A DNA stretch of 64,000 nucleotides from contig NZ_JQKD01000008.1 of NCBI RefSeq assembly GCF_000745855.1, positions 62,001-126,000 of the forward strand. Direction: 5' to 3'. The notes under the pieces are model-generated. The model was given only the letters and a program-made list of their open reading frames with translations, had not been told where the DNA came from and did not search any database. Numbering within the stretch: the stretch's first letter is position 1; each line of letters begins with the position of its first letter. The DNA is from Xenophilus azovorans DSM 13620 (GTDB lineage: Bacteria > Pseudomonadota > Gammaproteobacteria > Burkholderiales > Burkholderiaceae_C). This document shows positions 10,097-34,757 of this stretch, one piece after another. The position numbers and the translations under genes were made by a program.

Positions 10097-10978
10097 ATGA
10101 GCCTCCCGCCGCCGGCCGCCCTCGACGCGCTCACCGACGTCAACCTCGCCGACCTGCTGGACTCGGCCGGCCTCTCGCGCCTGCACGGCACGCCGTTCGG
10201 CCGCCTGCTGCGGCCCCCGGCGCGCCGCTTCGCCCGGGTGGCGCACGAGTTCGACCAGCGGGTGGGGGCGCACGGTCTGTCGCAAGGCAGCGCCTGGCTG
10301 ATGGCGCAGATGACGGCGGGCCTGCGCACGACGGGTGCCGAGCGGGTCCCGGCGCACGGCCCGGTGGTCATCCTGGCGAACCATCCGGGCATGACGGACA
10401 CCGTCGCGCTGTTCTCCAGCCTGCCGCACCGGCCCGACCTGCGGGTGATCGCGCTGGATCGGCCCTTCCTGCGCGCCCTGCCGCACGTGGCGCGGCAGCT
10501 GATCTTCCTGCCCGGGGACGCGTCCGGCCGCATGGCGGCGCTGCGCGCCGGCGCCCGGCACCTGCAGGACGGCGGCGCGCTGCTGACCTTCCCCGCGGGG
10601 GAGATCGAGCCCGACCCGGCCGCCTTCGGCCTGGAACGCGCGCTGGCCTCGCTGGAGAGCTGGTCCGACAGCTACCGCCTGTTCGCCCGCCTGGTGCCCG
10701 GCACACGCTTCGTGCCGGCGCTGGTGAGCCATGTCATCTCGCCCGCCGCGCAGCGCCATCCGCTCACCCTGCTGCGGCGCACGCCGCCCAACCGCGAGAA
10801 GCTGGCGGCGGCGCTGCAGATCACGCTGCCGCGCTACCGCAACGGCGTGGCCCGGGTGCGCTTCGGCACGTCACACCTGGCGGACAGGCAGGGACTGCCG
10901 CAACTGGGCGCCGGCATGGCCGCGCAGATGCGGCAGCTCCTGCTCGCGCACGACGCGGAGGCGGCCGGATGTCCGTGA
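10097..10978 (+). CDS. PlsC-like lysophospholipid acyltransferase family protein
   Basis: A 293-residue acyltransferase-like protein. The motif [14 protein letters not shown] has the catalytic N-H-x4-D of the PlsC/LPLAT family, about 85-95 residues in, and [10 protein letters not shown] stands for the F-P-E-G-T-R block, with the Glu changed to Ala-Gly-Glu. The family moves acyl chains from acyl-CoA or acyl-ACP to a hydroxyl, usually at the membrane. The start at 10097 is preferred over the in-frame ATG at 10076. The gene overlaps the downstream dehydrogenase by ten bases, so it belongs with the five-gene forward unit that follows, perhaps acylating its final product. The acceptor is unknown. 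Confidence 0.8.
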
Positions 10979-11949
10979 TCCAGGCGCGCTCGTGCTGGCT
11001 GGCCGAGCCCGGCCGCGCCGAATTGCGCACCGAGGCCCTGCCGGCGCCCGGCCCCGGCGAGGTGCGGGTGCGCGCCCTGCACAGCGGCATCAGCCGGGGG
11101 ACCGAGACGCTGGTGTTCCGCGGCGAGGTGCCCGAAAGCGAGTTCGACCGCATGCGCGCGCCCTTCCAGCAGGGCGCGTTCCCGGCGCCGGTGAAGTACG
11201 GCTACAGCAGCGTGGGCGTCGTCGAGGAGGGGCCGCCCGAATTGCAGGGCCGCACGGTGTTCTGCCTGCACCCGCACCAGTCGCACTACGTGGTGCCGGC
11301 CGAGGCGGTGCACCCGCTGCCGGACGGCGTGCCGCCCGAACGCGCGGTGCTGGCGGCCAACCTGGAGACGGCGGTCAACGCCCTGTGGGACGCCGCGCCG
11401 CGCGTGGGCGACCGGATCGCCGTGGTGGGTGGTGGCACGGTCGGCCTGCTGGTGGCATGGCTGGCGGCGCGGTTGCCGGGCAGCAGGGTGCAGGTGGTGG
11501 ACACGCAGGCCGGCAAGGGCGGTGTCGCGGAGCGGCTGGGCGCGGACTTCGCCGTGCCCGCGGTGGCGCGGCGCGAGGCCGATCTCGTGATCCACGCCAG
11601 CGGCCACCCCGAGGGCCTCGCCACCGCGCTGGACCTCGCCGCGTTCGAGGCCACCGTGCTGGAACTGAGCTGGTACGGCTCGCGCCCGGTGAGCGTGCCG
11701 CTGGGCGCGGCTTTCCACGCGCGCCGGCTGGTGCTGAAAAGCTCGCAGGTCGGCCACGTCGCCGCCGCGCAGCGCGCGCGATGGAGCCATCGCCGGCGCT
11801 TCGAGCTGGCGCTGTCCCTGCTGGCCGATCCCGCGCTCGACGCGCTGGTCACCGGCGCATCGCCCTTCGACGAACTGCCCTCGGTGCTGTCCCGGCTCGC
11901 CGCATCCGGCGTCGACGGCACCCTCTGCCACCGCATCGACTACCCCTGA
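10969..11949 (+). CDS. MDR-family dehydrogenase without zinc ligands (BchC-like)
   Basis: A 326-residue medium-chain dehydrogenase/reductase. The Rossmann nucleotide motif is [15 protein letters not shown]. In the catalytic domain, the usual C-G-T-D zinc segment is replaced by [18 protein letters not shown], and the G-H-E block by [11 protein letters not shown]. This resembles the bacteriochlorophyllide dehydrogenase BchC branch rather than zinc alcohol dehydrogenases. It probably oxidises or reduces a hydroxyl or keto group on a larger substrate with NAD(P). It overlaps the acyltransferase upstream and lies 11 bases before the PTPS-like gene, which ties it to that cluster. A longer open frame upstream (from 9403) is a shadow of other genes; 10969 has the family start. 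Confidence 0.85.
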
Positions 11950-11960
11950 TCCGCAAGCCC

Positions 11961-12377
11961 ATGTACAGCGTCAACGTCCGCGACCACTTCATGATCGCCC
12001 ACAGCTTCCGCGGCGAGGTCTTCGGCCCCGCGCAGCGCCTGCACGGCGCCACCTACGTGGTGGACCTGGAACTGCGCCGGCCCGAACTCGACCCCGATGG
12101 CATCGTGGCCGACATCGGCCTGCTCACCGCGATGCTGCGCACCGTGCTGGCCGAGCTGAACTTCCGCAACCTCGACGAGGAAGCGGTCTTCCACGGCCGC
12201 AACACCACGACCGAGTTCCTGGCCCGCGCCGTCTTCGACCGCGTGGCCGCGCGGATCGACGCGGGCGAGCTGGGGCCGCACGCCGGCGGCCTCTGCGCGA
12301 TGAAGGTGACGCTGCACGAATCACACGTCGCCTGGGCCGCCTACGAGGGCGAGCTGCCGGCGGCGCCGCGGCCCTGA
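11961..12377 (+). CDS. Degenerate 6-pyruvoyltetrahydropterin synthase / QueD homologue
   Basis: A 138-residue protein with the PTPS/QueD fold pattern. Zinc ligand His14 (in MIAHSF) and His28 (in QRLHGATY) are kept, but the third ligand of the H-G-H motif is Ala30. The catalytic Cys of C-G-R-x-H-G-H is Ala24, and the L-D-H-x-x-L-N block reads LNFRNLD, so the catalytic Asp-His pair is gone as well. The pterin-binding Glu in the C-terminal VTLHESH is kept, as is a Glu in NTTTEFLA. The fold and perhaps pterin or pyrimidine binding are likely retained, but the usual lyase chemistry is unlikely. It is the centre of the cluster running from 10097 to 15355. Confidence 0.85.
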
Positions 12378-12390
12378 AGGCGGAGGCACC

Positions 12391-13437
12391 GTGCCGTCCG
12401 TGGTCTTCGTGGTGCCGGGCGACCTGGACACCTGCACGGGCGGCTATGCCTACGACCGGCACATCATCGGCGGCCTGCGCGACGCGGGCTGGACGGTGGA
12501 CGTCCTGGCGCTGGCCGACGGCTTCCCCTGGCCCGATGCGGCCGCGCTGGCCGATGCGGCCGAACGGATCGCGGGCCTGCCCGGCGGCAGCCTGGTGGTC
12601 GTCGATGGCCTGGCCTTCGGCGCGCTGCCCGAACTCGCCGCCCGCCATGCGCAGCGGCTGGCTTGGGTGGCGCTGGTGCATCACCCGCTGGCGCTGGAAA
12701 CGGGGCTGGGCGAGGCGCAACGCCGGCAGCTTCTCGACAGCGAGCGGCGCGCCCTGGCGGCGGCGCGCCGGGTGATCGTCACGAGCCACGCGACGGCGCG
12801 CGCGCTGCAGCGCGACTACGGCGTGCCGCCGGCGCGCATCCACGTGGTGGAGCCGGGGACCGTGCCCGCCGCTGCGCATGAACGCCCGGCCGGCGACGGC
12901 CTGTCGCTGCTGTGCGTGGCCGCCGTGACGCCGCGCAAGGGACACGGCGTCCTGATCGACGCCCTGGCCGGACTTCAGGACCGCGCCTGGACGCTGCGCT
13001 GCGTCGGCAGCCTTGCGCGCAGCCCGGACACGGTCCATGCACTGCGCCACGCCATCGCGGCGCACGGCATGGCGCAGCGCGTGCATCTGGATGGCGAAGT
13101 GGACGCGGACCGGCTGGCCCGGCACTACGCGCAGGCCGATGCCTTCGTCCTGCCGTCCTTCCACGAGGGCTACGGCATGGCGCTGGCCGAGGCGATGGCG
13201 CACGGCCTGCCCGTCGTGAGCACGACAGCCGGCGCCATCCCCGACACCGTGCCGGCCGGGGCCGGCGTGCTGGTGCCGCCCGGCGACGTGCCGGCGCTGC
13301 GCGCCGCGCTGGCCCGCCTGCTGGACGATCCCGCCTGGCGGGCGTCGCTGGCCCGCGGCGCGCGGGCCGCCGGCGCGCGCCTGCCCGGCTGGCGCGAGGC
13401 GGCCGCGCGCTTCGCCGAGGCATTGCGGCTGCCATGA
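12391..13437 (+). CDS. GT4-family glycosyltransferase
   Basis: A 348-residue GT-B glycosyltransferase. The C-terminal nucleotide-sugar site is clear: FHEGYGMALAEAMAHGLPVV carries the E-x7-E motif of family GT4, and AAVTPRKGHGVLIDAL is the usual start of the second Rossmann domain. It transfers a sugar, with retention of configuration, from a nucleotide-sugar donor. Start is GTG with GGAGG four bases upstream. The gene overlaps the methyltransferase by four bases (ATGA), so the two are translationally coupled. There are no capsule or lipopolysaccharide genes around, and the neighbours are pterin- and pyrimidine-type enzymes, so a small-molecule acceptor is more likely than a polysaccharide. 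That part is inference. Confidence 0.9.
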   Translation: MPSVVFVVPGDLDTCTGGYAYDRHIIGGLRDAGWTVDVLALADGFPWPDAAALADAAERIAGLPGGSLVVVDGLAFGALPELAARHAQRLAWVALVHHPLALETGLGEAQRRQLLDSERRALAAARRVIVTSHATARALQRDYGVPPARIHVVEPGTVPAAAHERPAGDGLSLLCVAAVTPRKGHGVLIDALAGLQDRAWTLRCVGSLARSPDTVHALRHAIAAHGMAQRVHLDGEVDADRLARHYAQADAFVLPSFHEGYGMALAEAMAHGLPVVSTTAGAIPDTVPAGAGVLVPPGDVPALRAALARLLDDPAWRASLARGARAAGARLPGWREAAARFAEALRLP

Positions 13438-14321
13438 GCGGATTCAGCGCCGACTGGCTGGCCCTGCGCGAGCCCTTCGACCGCCGGGCGCGCGCAGCGG
13501 CCATCGACGCCTTCGCGCTGCCTGCGTTGGCGCAGCGGTGGCGTGCGGCGCATGGCGGCGCGGGGCCGTCGGTGCTCGATCTGGCCTGCGGCAGCGGCGC
13601 GAACTTCCGGGCGCTTGCGCCGCGGCTCGGGCCGGGCCAGCGCTGGCGGCTGGTCGATCACGACCCCGCCCTGCTGGCGGCCGTGCCCGGGGCGCTGGCG
13701 GCATGGGCGGAACACCAGGGCTACACGCTGCGCGGGATCGGCGCGGACGCCATCGGCATTGACGGGCCCGGTTTCGGCGCCGAGGTCACATTGGAAGCGC
13801 TGGACCTGGCGCACGACCTGCACCGCCTCGAGTTGGCGGACACGCAACTGGTGACGGCCTCCGCGCTGCTCGACCTCGTGTCGGCCTCCTGGCTGGAGGC
13901 GCTGGTCGGGCACGCACGCGACGCGCAGGCGGCGATGCTGTTCGCGCTGAGCGTCGATGGGCGCGTGGGCTGGACGCCCGCCGATCCGGCGGACGCCGCC
14001 ATCGACCGCCTGTTCGCCGCGCACCAGCGGCGCGACAAGGGCTTCGGCCCCGCGCTGGGCGCGCAGGCGCCGGCCGTGGCCGGCCGCCTCATCGGCGATG
14101 CCGGCTACGTGGTGCAGCAGGTGTCCAGCGACTGGGACATCGAAGGCGACGACGCCATGCTGGCCGCGATGGTCGATGGCATGGCGCAGGCCGCCAGGGA
14201 ACAGGCCGGGGCCGCCGACAGGGCGCTCGTCGACGCCTGGCAGGCGCGGCGCCACGCGATGCGGCGCTCCACTTGCCTGAATGTCGGTCACATCGACCTT
14301 TTCGCGAAAGTGCGCCCATGA
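13434..14321 (+). CDS. Class I SAM-dependent methyltransferase
   Basis: A 295-residue protein. Motif I of a class I methyltransferase is visible as VLDLACGSGANFRAL near residue 48, followed by the acidic strand-2 end WRLVDHDPALLA. The C-terminus LNVGHIDLFAKVRP is well formed. It is therefore a soluble SAM-dependent methyltransferase of unknown substrate. The ATG at 13434 overlaps the glycosyltransferase stop. The gene ends the forward five-gene unit and converges on the RibD-like gene, with a dispersed palindromic repeat between them. Given its coupling, it probably methylates the same molecule that the glycosyltransferase glycosylates. Confidence 0.88.
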   Translation: MSGFSADWLALREPFDRRARAAAIDAFALPALAQRWRAAHGGAGPSVLDLACGSGANFRALAPRLGPGQRWRLVDHDPALLAAVPGALAAWAEHQGYTLRGIGADAIGIDGPGFGAEVTLEALDLAHDLHRLELADTQLVTASALLDLVSASWLEALVGHARDAQAAMLFALSVDGRVGWTPADPADAAIDRLFAAHQRRDKGFGPALGAQAPAVAGRLIGDAGYVVQQVSSDWDIEGDDAMLAAMVDGMAQAAREQAGAADRALVDAWQARRHAMRRSTCLNVGHIDLFAKVRP

Positions 14322-14330
14322 GCATCCACC

Positions 14331-14418
14331 AACCGTTCACGCTGAGCCTGTCGAAGCGCCGCACCCGGCTTCGACCCTTCGGCAAGCTCAGGACAGGCCA
14401 AGCTCAGCCCGAACGGTT
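14331..14418. repeat. Dispersed palindromic intergenic repeat (REP-like)
   Basis: The element begins AACCGTTC and ends GAACGGTT, and contains pieces reading gctgagcctgtcgaag and cttcggcaagctcagga in opposite orientation, so it folds into a long imperfect hairpin. The words tcgaag, gctcag and gaacgg are those of the REP-like palindromes often scattered between genes in betaproteobacteria and xanthomonads. It fills the gap between two convergent genes, where it may also act as a bidirectional terminator. No transposase is near; such elements are usually mobilised in trans. Only one copy is visible in this window. Confidence 0.7.
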
Positions 14419-14443
14419 GTCGTTGATCGAACGCCGATCCGCA

Positions 14444-15355
14444 CTAGCCGCGCAGGTCCAGGTCCCAGAGCTGATCGACCCCCATCGGGTGCACCCGGTG
14501 CGCCGGCCGCGCGCAGTCGGCCAGCCGCGCCGGGCCGTCGAAGCGCAGCCCCGGCCGGCCGTTGCCGACCAGCAGCGGCGCCACCGACAGGTGCAGCCGG
14601 TCGAGGCAGCCCTGCGCGAGAAAGCGCGACACCGTCACCCCGCCACCCTCGACGAAGATGCGCCGCAGGCCGCGCGAGCGCAGCGCGGCCACCGCGCGCG
14701 CCGCGTCCGGCGTGCCGTCGTCGTCGCGCAGCAGGCCCGGCACCGCCAGCACCCGGCCGGCGCCCGCCTGTTCCTCGGCCTGCGATCGCCAGCGGGCATC
14801 GCACAGCCACAGCGTGGGCGCGCTGCGGTCCACGAACACCTGCGCGGAGGCGGCGCGCTCCGCCAGGCCGGCGCGCGGGTCCAGCAGCACCCGCGTCGGG
14901 TTGGGGCCCGGCACCTTGCGCGTGGTCAGCAGCGGGTTGTCGGCCGCCACCGAGCCGGCGCCCAGCAGCACCACCTCGCTCAGCGCGCGCAGGCGGTGCA
15001 GGTGGACGATGTTCTCCGGCCCGTTGATGAAGCGGGATTCGCCGGTGCGCGTCGCCACGCAGCCGTCCAGGCTCTGCCCGAGCTGGCCGACCACCCAGCC
15101 CCCCGTGCGCGCCTGGATGTCCAGCAGCGGCTTGAAAAGCGCGAACAGCGCACGCGCCGCGTCCGCCCAGGCGCCGCGCAGCGCCCAGCCCGCGTCGGGC
15201 TGCCAGTCCAGCGCCTCGCCGGAAGAGGCGGAGCGCGCGCCGTGGGCCTGGCACAGCAGCAGCGCCCACAGCGCCTCGGCCGAGCCCGGCTGCGCGTGCG
15301 CAGGCCGCTCCGCCGAAGCGGCGGACGCGTGCAGGGGGGATGGATCGGCTGGCAA
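14444..15355 (-). CDS. RibD C-terminal domain (pyrimidine reductase/DHFR-like) protein
   Basis: A 303-residue protein. From about residue 88 to the end it matches the reductase half of RibD: VGQLGQSLDGCVAT, then INGPENIVHLHRLRAL, VLLGAGSVAADNPLLTTR, and IFVEGGGVTVSRFLAQG near the C-terminus. RibD_C proteins use NADPH to reduce a ribosylamino-pyrimidine. The deaminase half of bifunctional RibD is absent; the first 85 residues show no recognised domain. The apparent start is TTG at 15355 without a clear ribosome-binding site, so the N-terminus is uncertain. It converges on the PTPS-like/glycosyltransferase unit, and the substrate class fits that group better than a second riboflavin pathway. 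Confidence 0.85.
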   Translation of the reverse strand: MPADPSPLHASAASAERPAHAQPGSAEALWALLLCQAHGARSASSGEALDWQPDAGWALRGAWADAARALFALFKPLLDIQARTGGWVVGQLGQSLDGCVATRTGESRFINGPENIVHLHRLRALSEVVLLGAGSVAADNPLLTTRKVPGPNPTRVLLDPRAGLAERAASAQVFVDRSAPTLWLCDARWRSQAEEQAGAGRVLAVPGLLRDDDGTPDAARAVAALRSRGLRRIFVEGGGVTVSRFLAQGCLDRLHLSVAPLLVGNGRPGLRFDGPARLADCARPAHRVHPMGVDQLWDLDLRG

Positions 15356-33519: not shown

Positions 33520-34757
33520 ACGACCTTTCCCTTTTCCTGCCCTGCGCCGCCGGCGTGGAGGACTTCCTCGCGCAGGAGGTGCATGCCATCACCGGCCGCG
33601 CCGGCGCCGACCTGCAGGTGCTTCGCGCCGGCGTGCGCGTGCACGCCGCCTGGCGCGACGTGCTGGCGCTCAACCTCAAGAGCCGCCTCGCGCAGCGCGT
33701 GCTGGTGGAGCTGGCGCACGCCCCCTACCGCAGCGAGGACGACCTGTACGCGGCCGCCGGCGCGGTCGCCTGGGAGGCCTGGTTCACCCCGCGCCAGACC
33801 TTCAAGGTCGAGACCACCGCCGCCGGCAGCCCGCTCAAGAGCCTGAACTTCGCCACCCTGCGCATCAAGGACGCGGTCGCCGACCGCTTCCGCGCCCGGG
33901 CCGGTGGCGTGCGGCCCAGCATCGAGACGCGCAGCCCCGACGTGCGCGTGTTCGCGCATCTCGCGGCCGACCGGCTGAGCCTGTCGATCGACACCAGCGG
34001 CGAGGCCCTGTTCAAGCGCGGCTGGCGCACCGACAAGGGCGATGCGCCGCTCAAGGAAACGCTGGCCGCCGCCATGCTCGCCGCCAGCGGCTGGTGGGAC
34101 CCTGAGACCGGCGCCGTGGCCGACCTGCCCCTGTACGACCCCTGCTGCGGCAGCGGCACGCTGCCCATCGAGGCCGCGCAGATCGCCGCCGGCCTGCCCG
34201 CCGGCGGCCAGCGCCGCTTCGGCTTCGAGCGCCTGCTGCCGCACCGCGCCGAGCCGTGGGCCGCCCTGCGGGCCGAGGCGCAGGCCGCGGCCACCGCGGC
34301 GGCGATGCGCGAGGTGCCCATCTTCGGCAGCGACGTCTCGCACCGCATGGTCGACTTCGCGCAGCGCAACGCCGAGCGCGCGGGCGTGGCCGGCCGCGTG
34401 CAGTTGCGCGGCGGCGACGCGCTGCAGCGCATGCCGCCCTCGGAGCGGCCCGGCGTGATGCTGCTGAACCCGCCCTACGGCGAGCGCATCGCGCCCGGCG
34501 GCTTCGCCGGCGCGGGCCGCGGCGCGCGCGAGACGGCGCAGACCGGGGACGACGGCGGCGAGTTCTTCGTCCGCCTCGCCGCCCACTGGAAGAAGCACTA
34601 CGCCGGCTGGACCGCCTGGGTGCTCACGCCCGACATGAAGCTGCCGCAGCGCATGCGCCTGAAGGAATCGCGCCGCGTGCCGATGTGGAACGGCCCGATC
34701 GAATGCCGCCTGCTGCGCTTCGACATGGTGGCCGGCTCGGCGCGCGAGAAGCCGTGA
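33516..34757 (+). CDS. THUMP-domain class I SAM RNA methyltransferase (RlmL-like)
   Basis: A 413-residue cytoplasmic enzyme. The N-terminal THUMP RNA-binding region (about 40-160) is followed by a methyltransferase domain with [16 protein letters not shown] (SAM motif I) and [10 protein letters not shown] (the N-P-P-Y catalytic motif for guanine N2 methylation). It matches the first half of E. coli RlmKL, which makes m2G2445 in 23S rRNA; the RlmK half is absent. The GTG start overlaps the norR stop by four bases, but shared function is unlikely. The PIN gene follows with another four-base overlap. Confidence 0.9.

Follow-up and report, generated by a model that had tools for sequence, protein, structure and literature searches.

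What might a bacterium make with a gene set in which a pterin-synthase homologue and a pyrimidine-reductase domain stand beside a dehydrogenase and sugar-, methyl- and acyl-transfer enzymes? Such a set occupies positions 10097 to 15355 of a 64,000-nucleotide stretch of Xenophilus azovorans DSM 13620 (contig NZ_JQKD01000008.1, positions 62,001 to 126,000), hereafter the window. Its six genes encode a PlsC-type acyltransferase (AT), a zinc-less medium-chain dehydrogenase (ADH), a homologue of 6-pyruvoyl-tetrahydropterin synthase (PTPS), a GT4 glycosyltransferase (GT), a class I S-adenosylmethionine (SAM)-dependent methyltransferase (MT) and a stand-alone RibD_C (pyrimidine reductase) domain protein. 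We conclude that they very probably serve a dedicated pathway starting from a pyrimidine derived from guanosine triphosphate (GTP). We further propose, as an evenly balanced judgement, that the cluster represents one local version of an orphan pathway that is widely distributed. Marked by the PTPS-IV subfamily of PTPS homologues, this pathway would convert a GTP-derived 2-amino-4-oxopyrimidine to a lipid-linked compound that is also glycosylated and methylated.

A neighbourhood conserved across bacterial groups

How widely is the gene set shared? A PTPS profile scanned against one genome per species matched at least 595 stretches, at least 589 of which were confirmed, and the best 80 of these were kept; with eight plasmid loci and three loci from the window's own order they make a set of 91, or 92 with the window. 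Eleven of 25 plasmid records were opened. Left out of the counts are L013, which has no PTPS gene, the archaeal L023, and L016 and L022, two Streptomyces plasmids that hold the PTPS gene alone, amid cupin, metallo-beta-lactamase (MBL)-fold and BTAD-regulator genes. When the window proteins were searched in the 91 loci at E 1e-6, ADH was found beside the PTPS gene (present in all 91 by construction) in 91 loci, GT in 90, MT in 88, RibD_C in 74 and AT in two, while the racemase and HMG-CoA-lyase-like genes that flank the set in the window were found in none at the same threshold. This difference, zero against 88 to 91 for ADH, GT and MT, argues that the neighbourhood is not a product of chance. 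The order ADH-PTPS-GT-MT on one strand holds in 86 of the 92 loci, which by their record titles belong to Proteobacteria, Acidobacteria, Gemmatimonadota and genera of Actinomycetota.

Since the nearest relatives make up the 80 loci, and possession of the block was the criterion for choosing the plasmid loci, an even sample of the window's class was also drawn. Of its 370 genomes, 21 (the window's own included) have a subfamily member scoring at least 127 bits; below these, the best score is 56 bits. GT adjoins the PTPS gene in all 20 carriers besides the window's, and ADH does so in 18. By comparison, none of nine lower-scoring PTPS-family control genes has ADH, GT or MT within 1.5-kb flanks. 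The gene set, which the initial annotation had allowed might be peculiar to this strain, is thus not strain-specific in either sample. The subfamily also occurs in four genomes of about 1 Mb; the three that were opened, with 29-31% guanine plus cytosine (GC), keep ADH, PTPS, GT, MT and RibD_C together with genes for a CDP-alcohol phosphatidyltransferase (CDP-AP) and a flippase.

In the window, five forward-strand genes are tightly packed and the sixth converges on them. The AT gene (10097..10978, 293 residues), just upstream of the BchC-like ADH gene (10969..11949, 326 residues), overlaps it by 10 bases; an 11-base gap separates ADH from the PTPS gene (11961..12377, 138 residues) and a 13-base gap separates the latter from the GT4 gene (12391..13437, 348 residues), which in turn overlaps the MT gene (13434..14321, 295 residues) by four bases. 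The RibD_C gene (14444..15355, 303 residues) lies on the reverse strand. The order, strands, overlaps and gaps given in the initial annotation agree with this reading to the base. The AT, ADH, GT4, MT and RibD_C frames have a third-position GC of 0.90-0.95 and a strong codon-position bias.

The family assignments differ in firmness. AT passes the Pfam cut-off for PF01553 Acyltransferase (24.9 bits, cut-off 23) and scores 44.9 bits against the OlsF model (cut-off 620). ADH lies below the cut-off of ADH_zinc_N (27.2 against 31.8 bits) and far under that of BchC TIGR01202 (55 against 291 bits), and its consensus conserves SRGTE at the position of the zinc Cys in classical members. The PTPS homologue matches PF01242 at 87 bits, and GT4 matches PF13692 at 108.4 bits, with 104.2 bits against EpsE and 73.6 bits against MshA, both under those models' cut-offs. 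The RibD_C protein matches PF01872 at 106.2 bits over residues 87-270, following an N-terminal extension of about 85 residues, and scores 93.1 bits against RibD_Cterm and 72.9 bits against TIGR01508, the archaeal reductase of 2,5-diamino-6-ribosylamino-4(3H)-pyrimidinone 5'-phosphate (DARPP), both under cut-off. MT matches no Pfam or NCBIfam family at E 0.001. The top Foldseek match of its AlphaFold2 model (predicted local distance difference test, pLDDT, 96.2) is the methyltransferase 3mgg (template-modelling score, TM, 0.53-0.64), and the 50 structures listed are mostly methyltransferase-titled entries, of generic kinds.

Some further observations concern the surroundings of these genes. The interval between the MT and RibD_C genes, 14322-14416, contains the core TTCGACAGGCTCAG, of which there is an exact copy at 14342-14355 and one near copy at 33975-33988 (0.02 expected); a 95-base stretch from this region has 90.6% identity to a Variovorax plasmid. 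In one relative (L027, 7416-8513 on G140:C105) the first 28 PTPS-IV residues run directly into a GT4 match, as if the remaining PTPS gene had been lost. A Salipiger plasmid match (H4) was dropped, the common part being a short GT stretch only. In a scan of viral contigs with the PTPS protein as sole query, none of its patterns was matched.

The PTPS homologue and a probable entry compound

Is the PTPS homologue a pterin synthase? The window protein carries the signature F21-G22-P23-A24-Q25, conserved in 94, 94, 92, 94 and 91 of 94 sequences, respectively, and this FGPAQ motif marks the PTPS-IV group of COG0720 (PMC5445326). The subfamily profile scores 218.9 bits against the structure of SCO6650, an entry titled 'uncharacterized' (PDB 3d7j), and at most 33 bits against three other PTPS structures. 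In the 94 relatives the catalytic Cys is always Ala, the HGH motif reads HGA in 93 and HGV in one, with loss of the third zinc His, and the triad His of the Asp-His pair is present in none; Glu120 is kept in all 94. Five lower-scoring controls that were aligned retain the Cys, the Asp-His pair, the zinc His and the Glu without exception. In PTPS enzymes this Glu anchors the pterin ring, the Cys and the Asp-His pair serve catalysis, and the His residues of the motif bind zinc. The 2008 paper on the SCO6650 structure reportedly found neither zinc nor PTPS activity. The loss of the PTPS/QueD catalytic residues makes ordinary pterin-synthase chemistry unlikely for the 'pterin-type enzyme' of the initial annotation.

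There is also a second, divergent form of the protein; in both sequences inspected (L023 and L154) it keeps the zinc HxH pair and carries Glu in place of the Cys. It is found on haloarchaeal plasmids and in one genome of the window's order (L154), where relatives of RibD_C, ADH and GT were identified by search and MT- and CDP-AP-like frames by eye. In a draw of 398 genomes of the phylum one has the divergent form at E 1e-15, and the L154 genome is absent from the listed matches of that draw. Six haloarchaeal records, including L023, were read by their annotation. In five, ADH is immediately upstream of PTPS, and in the sixth a single gene separates the two. After PTPS comes an annotated methyltransferase in five and a hypothetical gene in the remaining one. 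GT follows PTPS in four, with a GT4 gene about 4.4 kb away in a fifth, and three have CDP-AP no more than about 5 kb away. In Haloarcula pelagica the operon order is CDP-AP, an annotated GTP cyclohydrolase IIa, ADH, PTPS and MT; the cyclohydrolase gene of this operon, at 7172-7954 of L160, is plasmid-borne. The archaeal GTP cyclohydrolase IIa is not known to be related to GTP cyclohydrolase II.

What, then, enters the pathway? RibA (GTP cyclohydrolase II) is encoded in 44 of the 92 loci and a creatininase-family protein in 32. All 44 cluster enzymes retain the CxC of the RibA metal site (for the first Cys of the site a neighbouring column was counted), and the residue at the position of E. coli Tyr105, located by alignment to 2bz0, is Tyr in 34, His in six, Met in three and Gln in one. 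All ten loci with a non-Tyr RibA encode creatininase. Within Actinomycetota the split is clean, ten non-Tyr loci with creatininase and 14 Tyr loci without it (Fisher 5e-7, relatedness ignored). The Met-type RibA of S. coelicolor is said to stop at a formyl compound. BrbF of S. meliloti, a creatininase-family formamidase, was shown by experiment to convert the formyl intermediate to DARPP (PMC9478397). Together, the pattern of RibA residue and creatininase and the chemistry of BrbF point to DARPP as the entry compound. The window's cluster contains neither cyclohydrolase nor creatininase; its genome has two PF00925 matches, both outside the cluster, and some 1.6 kb from the stronger one lies a RibD-type match. 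The second, divergent GTP cyclohydrolase II-like match (G000:C21:38984-39406, 57 bits) is on a different contig.

A lipid-linked or a soluble product

The GTP cyclohydrolase and lipid genes that the initial annotation advised looking for accompany the set in relatives: to the RibA genes can be added CDP-AP in 67 of the 92 loci and a flippase-like protein (PF03706) in 47. AT is encoded in three, and CDP-AP and AT never occur in one locus, so that 70 loci have either. The CDP-AP motif is intact in 66 of the 67 relatives, and in many of them CDP-AP lies upstream of ADH, where the window has AT. Among 15 genomes of the window's genus, the PTPS gene (E 1e-20) and an AT orthologue (E 1e-30) are present together in seven and both absent from eight. 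Since AT is unlinked to the cluster in all five congeners that were opened, this co-occurrence reflects more than adjacency (relatedness not corrected). With the L033 CDP-AP relative as query, no match was found in the window's genome, in a search that had no positive control.

Other families recur at lower frequency: the sulfatase family (28 of the 92 loci), FkbM methyltransferase (24), YceI (18), MdoH (14), MdoG (10) and cytochrome b561 (five). The conserved neighbour families that were identified include neither lumazine synthase nor riboflavin synthase. Several groups (L059, L080, L086, L097, L098, L100, L104, L107 and others) have MdoG and/or MdoH genes close to the cluster, possibly an osmotic or envelope link. 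In two congeners (L172 and L173) the AT gene adjoins a gene for a glycine-betaine-type ABC transporter, and L173 also has a cardiolipin-synthase-like gene nearby.

The gene content, order and breadth of the set, its residue losses and its co-occurrences are direct observations; from the enzyme families we infer the first two steps of a pathway. GTP cyclohydrolase II would open GTP; in some relatives a variant enzyme, or the archaeal GTP cyclohydrolase IIa, probably halts at the formyl intermediate, which a creatininase-family formamidase would deformylate to DARPP, and the window strain, having no cluster cyclohydrolase, probably relies on its housekeeping riboflavin enzyme. The RibD_C enzyme would then reduce the ribosyl side chain to a polyol, and the 2-amino group should stay in place because the RibD deaminase domain was not found in the 303-residue window protein (Pfam gives the RibD_C domain only). 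The remaining steps, and the product, are conjecture. The zinc-less ADH might oxidise a hydroxyl of the side chain, and the PTPS homologue, with its ring-binding Glu kept, might hold the ring and aid closure or rearrangement to a pterin-like bicycle. GT4 and MT might decorate the product, and the lipid might be made by CDP-AP in most relatives or by the PlsC-type AT in the window strain (unlinked in congeners), to be moved in many relatives by a UPF0104-type flippase. That the pathway ends in a lipid-linked glycoside is a question on which we stand evenly divided. Only tentatively, we would go further and suggest a new class of membrane lipid in bacteria and haloarchaea: a GTP-made pterin or ribitylpyrimidine head, glycosylated and methylated, carried on diacylglycerol through CDP-AP (or directly acylated in the window strain), its ring shaped in a new reaction by a T-fold protein without a pterin-synthase site.

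Several observations weigh against this proposal. The window's own cluster has no RibA and no CDP-AP. Neither CDP-AP nor AT is present in 22 of the 92 loci, some of them ended by contig edges, and in ten of these 22 the genes upstream of ADH are mixed, with no common lipid enzyme. One congener (G890) has an unlinked AT as well as CDP-AP within its cluster; AT is therefore not simply a replacement for CDP-AP. RibD_C is absent from 17 of the 92 loci, including all seven with a His- or Gln-type RibA. Sixteen of the 34 loci with a Tyr-type RibA, all outside Actinomycetota, carry creatininase too, and the formamidase logic therefore does not hold everywhere. Two genomes of the class sample have no ADH near the PTPS gene, even within 18-19 kb, and the two opened Streptomyces plasmids have a PTPS gene with no ADH, GT or MT. 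Finally, the presence of MdoGH, betaine-transporter and YceI genes nearby suggests that the locus may have other roles in the envelope.

The alternative that survives best is a soluble product, in which the cluster would make a GTP-derived cofactor or secondary metabolite (a pterin or ribitylpyrimidine bearing sugar and methyl groups), with the lipid genes no more than neighbours. We regard it as possible, though doubtful. The near-invariant core, ADH-PTPS-GT-MT plus RibD_C, and the loci that lack both CDP-AP and AT speak for it, and cyanobacteria make glycosylated pterins. Set against it are the frequency of CDP-AP and of the flippase, both of which stay with the core in the three opened 1-Mb genomes, and the co-occurrence of AT and PTPS in the genus, even though the two are unlinked in the congeners opened. 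The small-molecule pathway of the initial annotation thus stands in part: the RibA, CDP-AP and flippase-like genes of relatives argue for a dedicated pathway with a GTP-derived ring at its start and a probable membrane end, and the deazaflavin-like option is not supported, as discussed below.

Other explanations and known systems

Less probable, and in our view unlikely, is that the locus serves a surface glycolipid or a periplasmic glucan: GT4, CDP-AP, sulfatase-like, MdoGH and flippase genes would form the pathway, and the PTPS and RibD_C homologues, repurposed, would handle no GTP-derived compound. The MdoH and sulfatase-family genes counted above fit this explanation, as does a PTPS homologue stripped of its catalytic residues. 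It is opposed by the two kinds of GTP cyclohydrolase at the locus (RibA and, in one archaeon, an annotated GTP cyclohydrolase IIa), by the intact CxC of every RibA and by the invariance of the ring-binding Glu.

A part in the biosynthesis of coenzyme F420/FO is highly improbable. GTP, an archaeal GTP cyclohydrolase and ribitylpyrimidines are common to the two chemistries, and such a role has been printed for archaeal PTPS-IV, from unpublished data (PMC5041015). CofH, however, reaches its cut-off (374.1 bits) in one of 30 bacterial carrier genomes, gives weak matches of 18-26 bits in 19 others and has no match in ten; the window's genome, at 23.1 bits, is not the one above cut-off. The same search passes the cut-off in three of 14 control genomes. 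FO/F420 synthesis is thus not what these bacteria generally use the cluster for. Among the bacterial carriers tested we reject it, and the result there speaks against the published F420 role; the 'deazaflavin-like' product of the initial annotation is not supported either. Least credible of all is that the PTPS gene is the strain's queuosine enzyme QueD amid coincidental neighbours, an explanation that draws on its being the sole PF01242 match found in the window's genome and on plasmid records that annotate relatives as 6-carboxytetrahydropterin synthase, and that we reject in view of the QueD model score (43.6 bits, cut-off 89.25), the lost Cys, zinc His and triad His, and several class genomes that hold a PTPS-IV gene plus a lower-scoring PTPS-family gene. 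QueD, folate and riboflavin chemistry are not supported by the gene set.

If the GTP-derived, lipid-linked pathway that we favour is real, a family of GTP-derived compounds has been overlooked in probably hundreds of species, given the at least 589 matching stretches and the 561 sequences of a 2017 study (PMC5445326), including genomes of about 1 Mb, and its genes currently bear queuosine, riboflavin and alcohol-dehydrogenase annotations. The solved orphan structure 3d7j would gain a function. It is now possible to name a likely precursor, DARPP, as well as the genes of the near-invariant core and the partners of lipid type.

How does the cluster compare with systems already described? The initial annotation knew of no described pathway with this combination, which is too strong: earlier publications cover the subfamily, the structure and two neighbouring genes. 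The 2017 study, on gene neighbourhoods, places PF00925 (called FolE2 there) and RibD_C beside FGPAQ-type PTPS genes (PMC5445326), and our finding is to that extent known. PF01872 is beside the PTPS gene in the window, and PF00925, not in the window's cluster, is the RibA family of the 44 relatives. By signature and profile score the window protein belongs to the same subfamily as SCO6650. In the main-text passage on PTPS-IV, to which the comparison is confined, ADH, GT4, MT, CDP-AP or AT, flippase, creatininase and cyclohydrolase IIa do not appear as one pathway (PMC5445326). Among open-licence papers we found no description of the full gene set, its product or a characterised pathway.

The archaeal-type opening of riboflavin synthesis (GTP cyclohydrolase III, ArfB/BrbF and a RibD_C-type reductase) resembles some of our loci in bringing together a cyclohydrolase, a creatininase-family protein and a stand-alone reductase; it differs in that the partners here are GT, MT and lipid-type genes rather than, among the neighbour families identified, lumazine or riboflavin synthase. 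The mycobacterial phosphatidylinositol mannoside genes combine CDP-AP, acyltransferase and GT4, the same enzyme classes as in our loci. In contrast to that system, no inositol gene was seen, CDP-AP and AT never share a locus, and a cyclohydrolase, a reductase, a PTPS homologue and ADH occur in our loci; both of the scanned CDP-AP relatives have their highest score with PgsA and lower ones with cardiolipin, inositol-phosphate-lipid and serine-lipid synthases, all under cut-off. Finally, the PTPS-II pathway to the glycosylated pterins of cyanobacteria likewise pairs a PTPS-family protein with a sugar transferase. PTPS-II keeps the motif CxxxxxHGH (PMC5445326), whereas the PTPS homologue of our cluster is without the Cys and the last His, and the partner of its relatives is GTP cyclohydrolase II, not GTP cyclohydrolase I.

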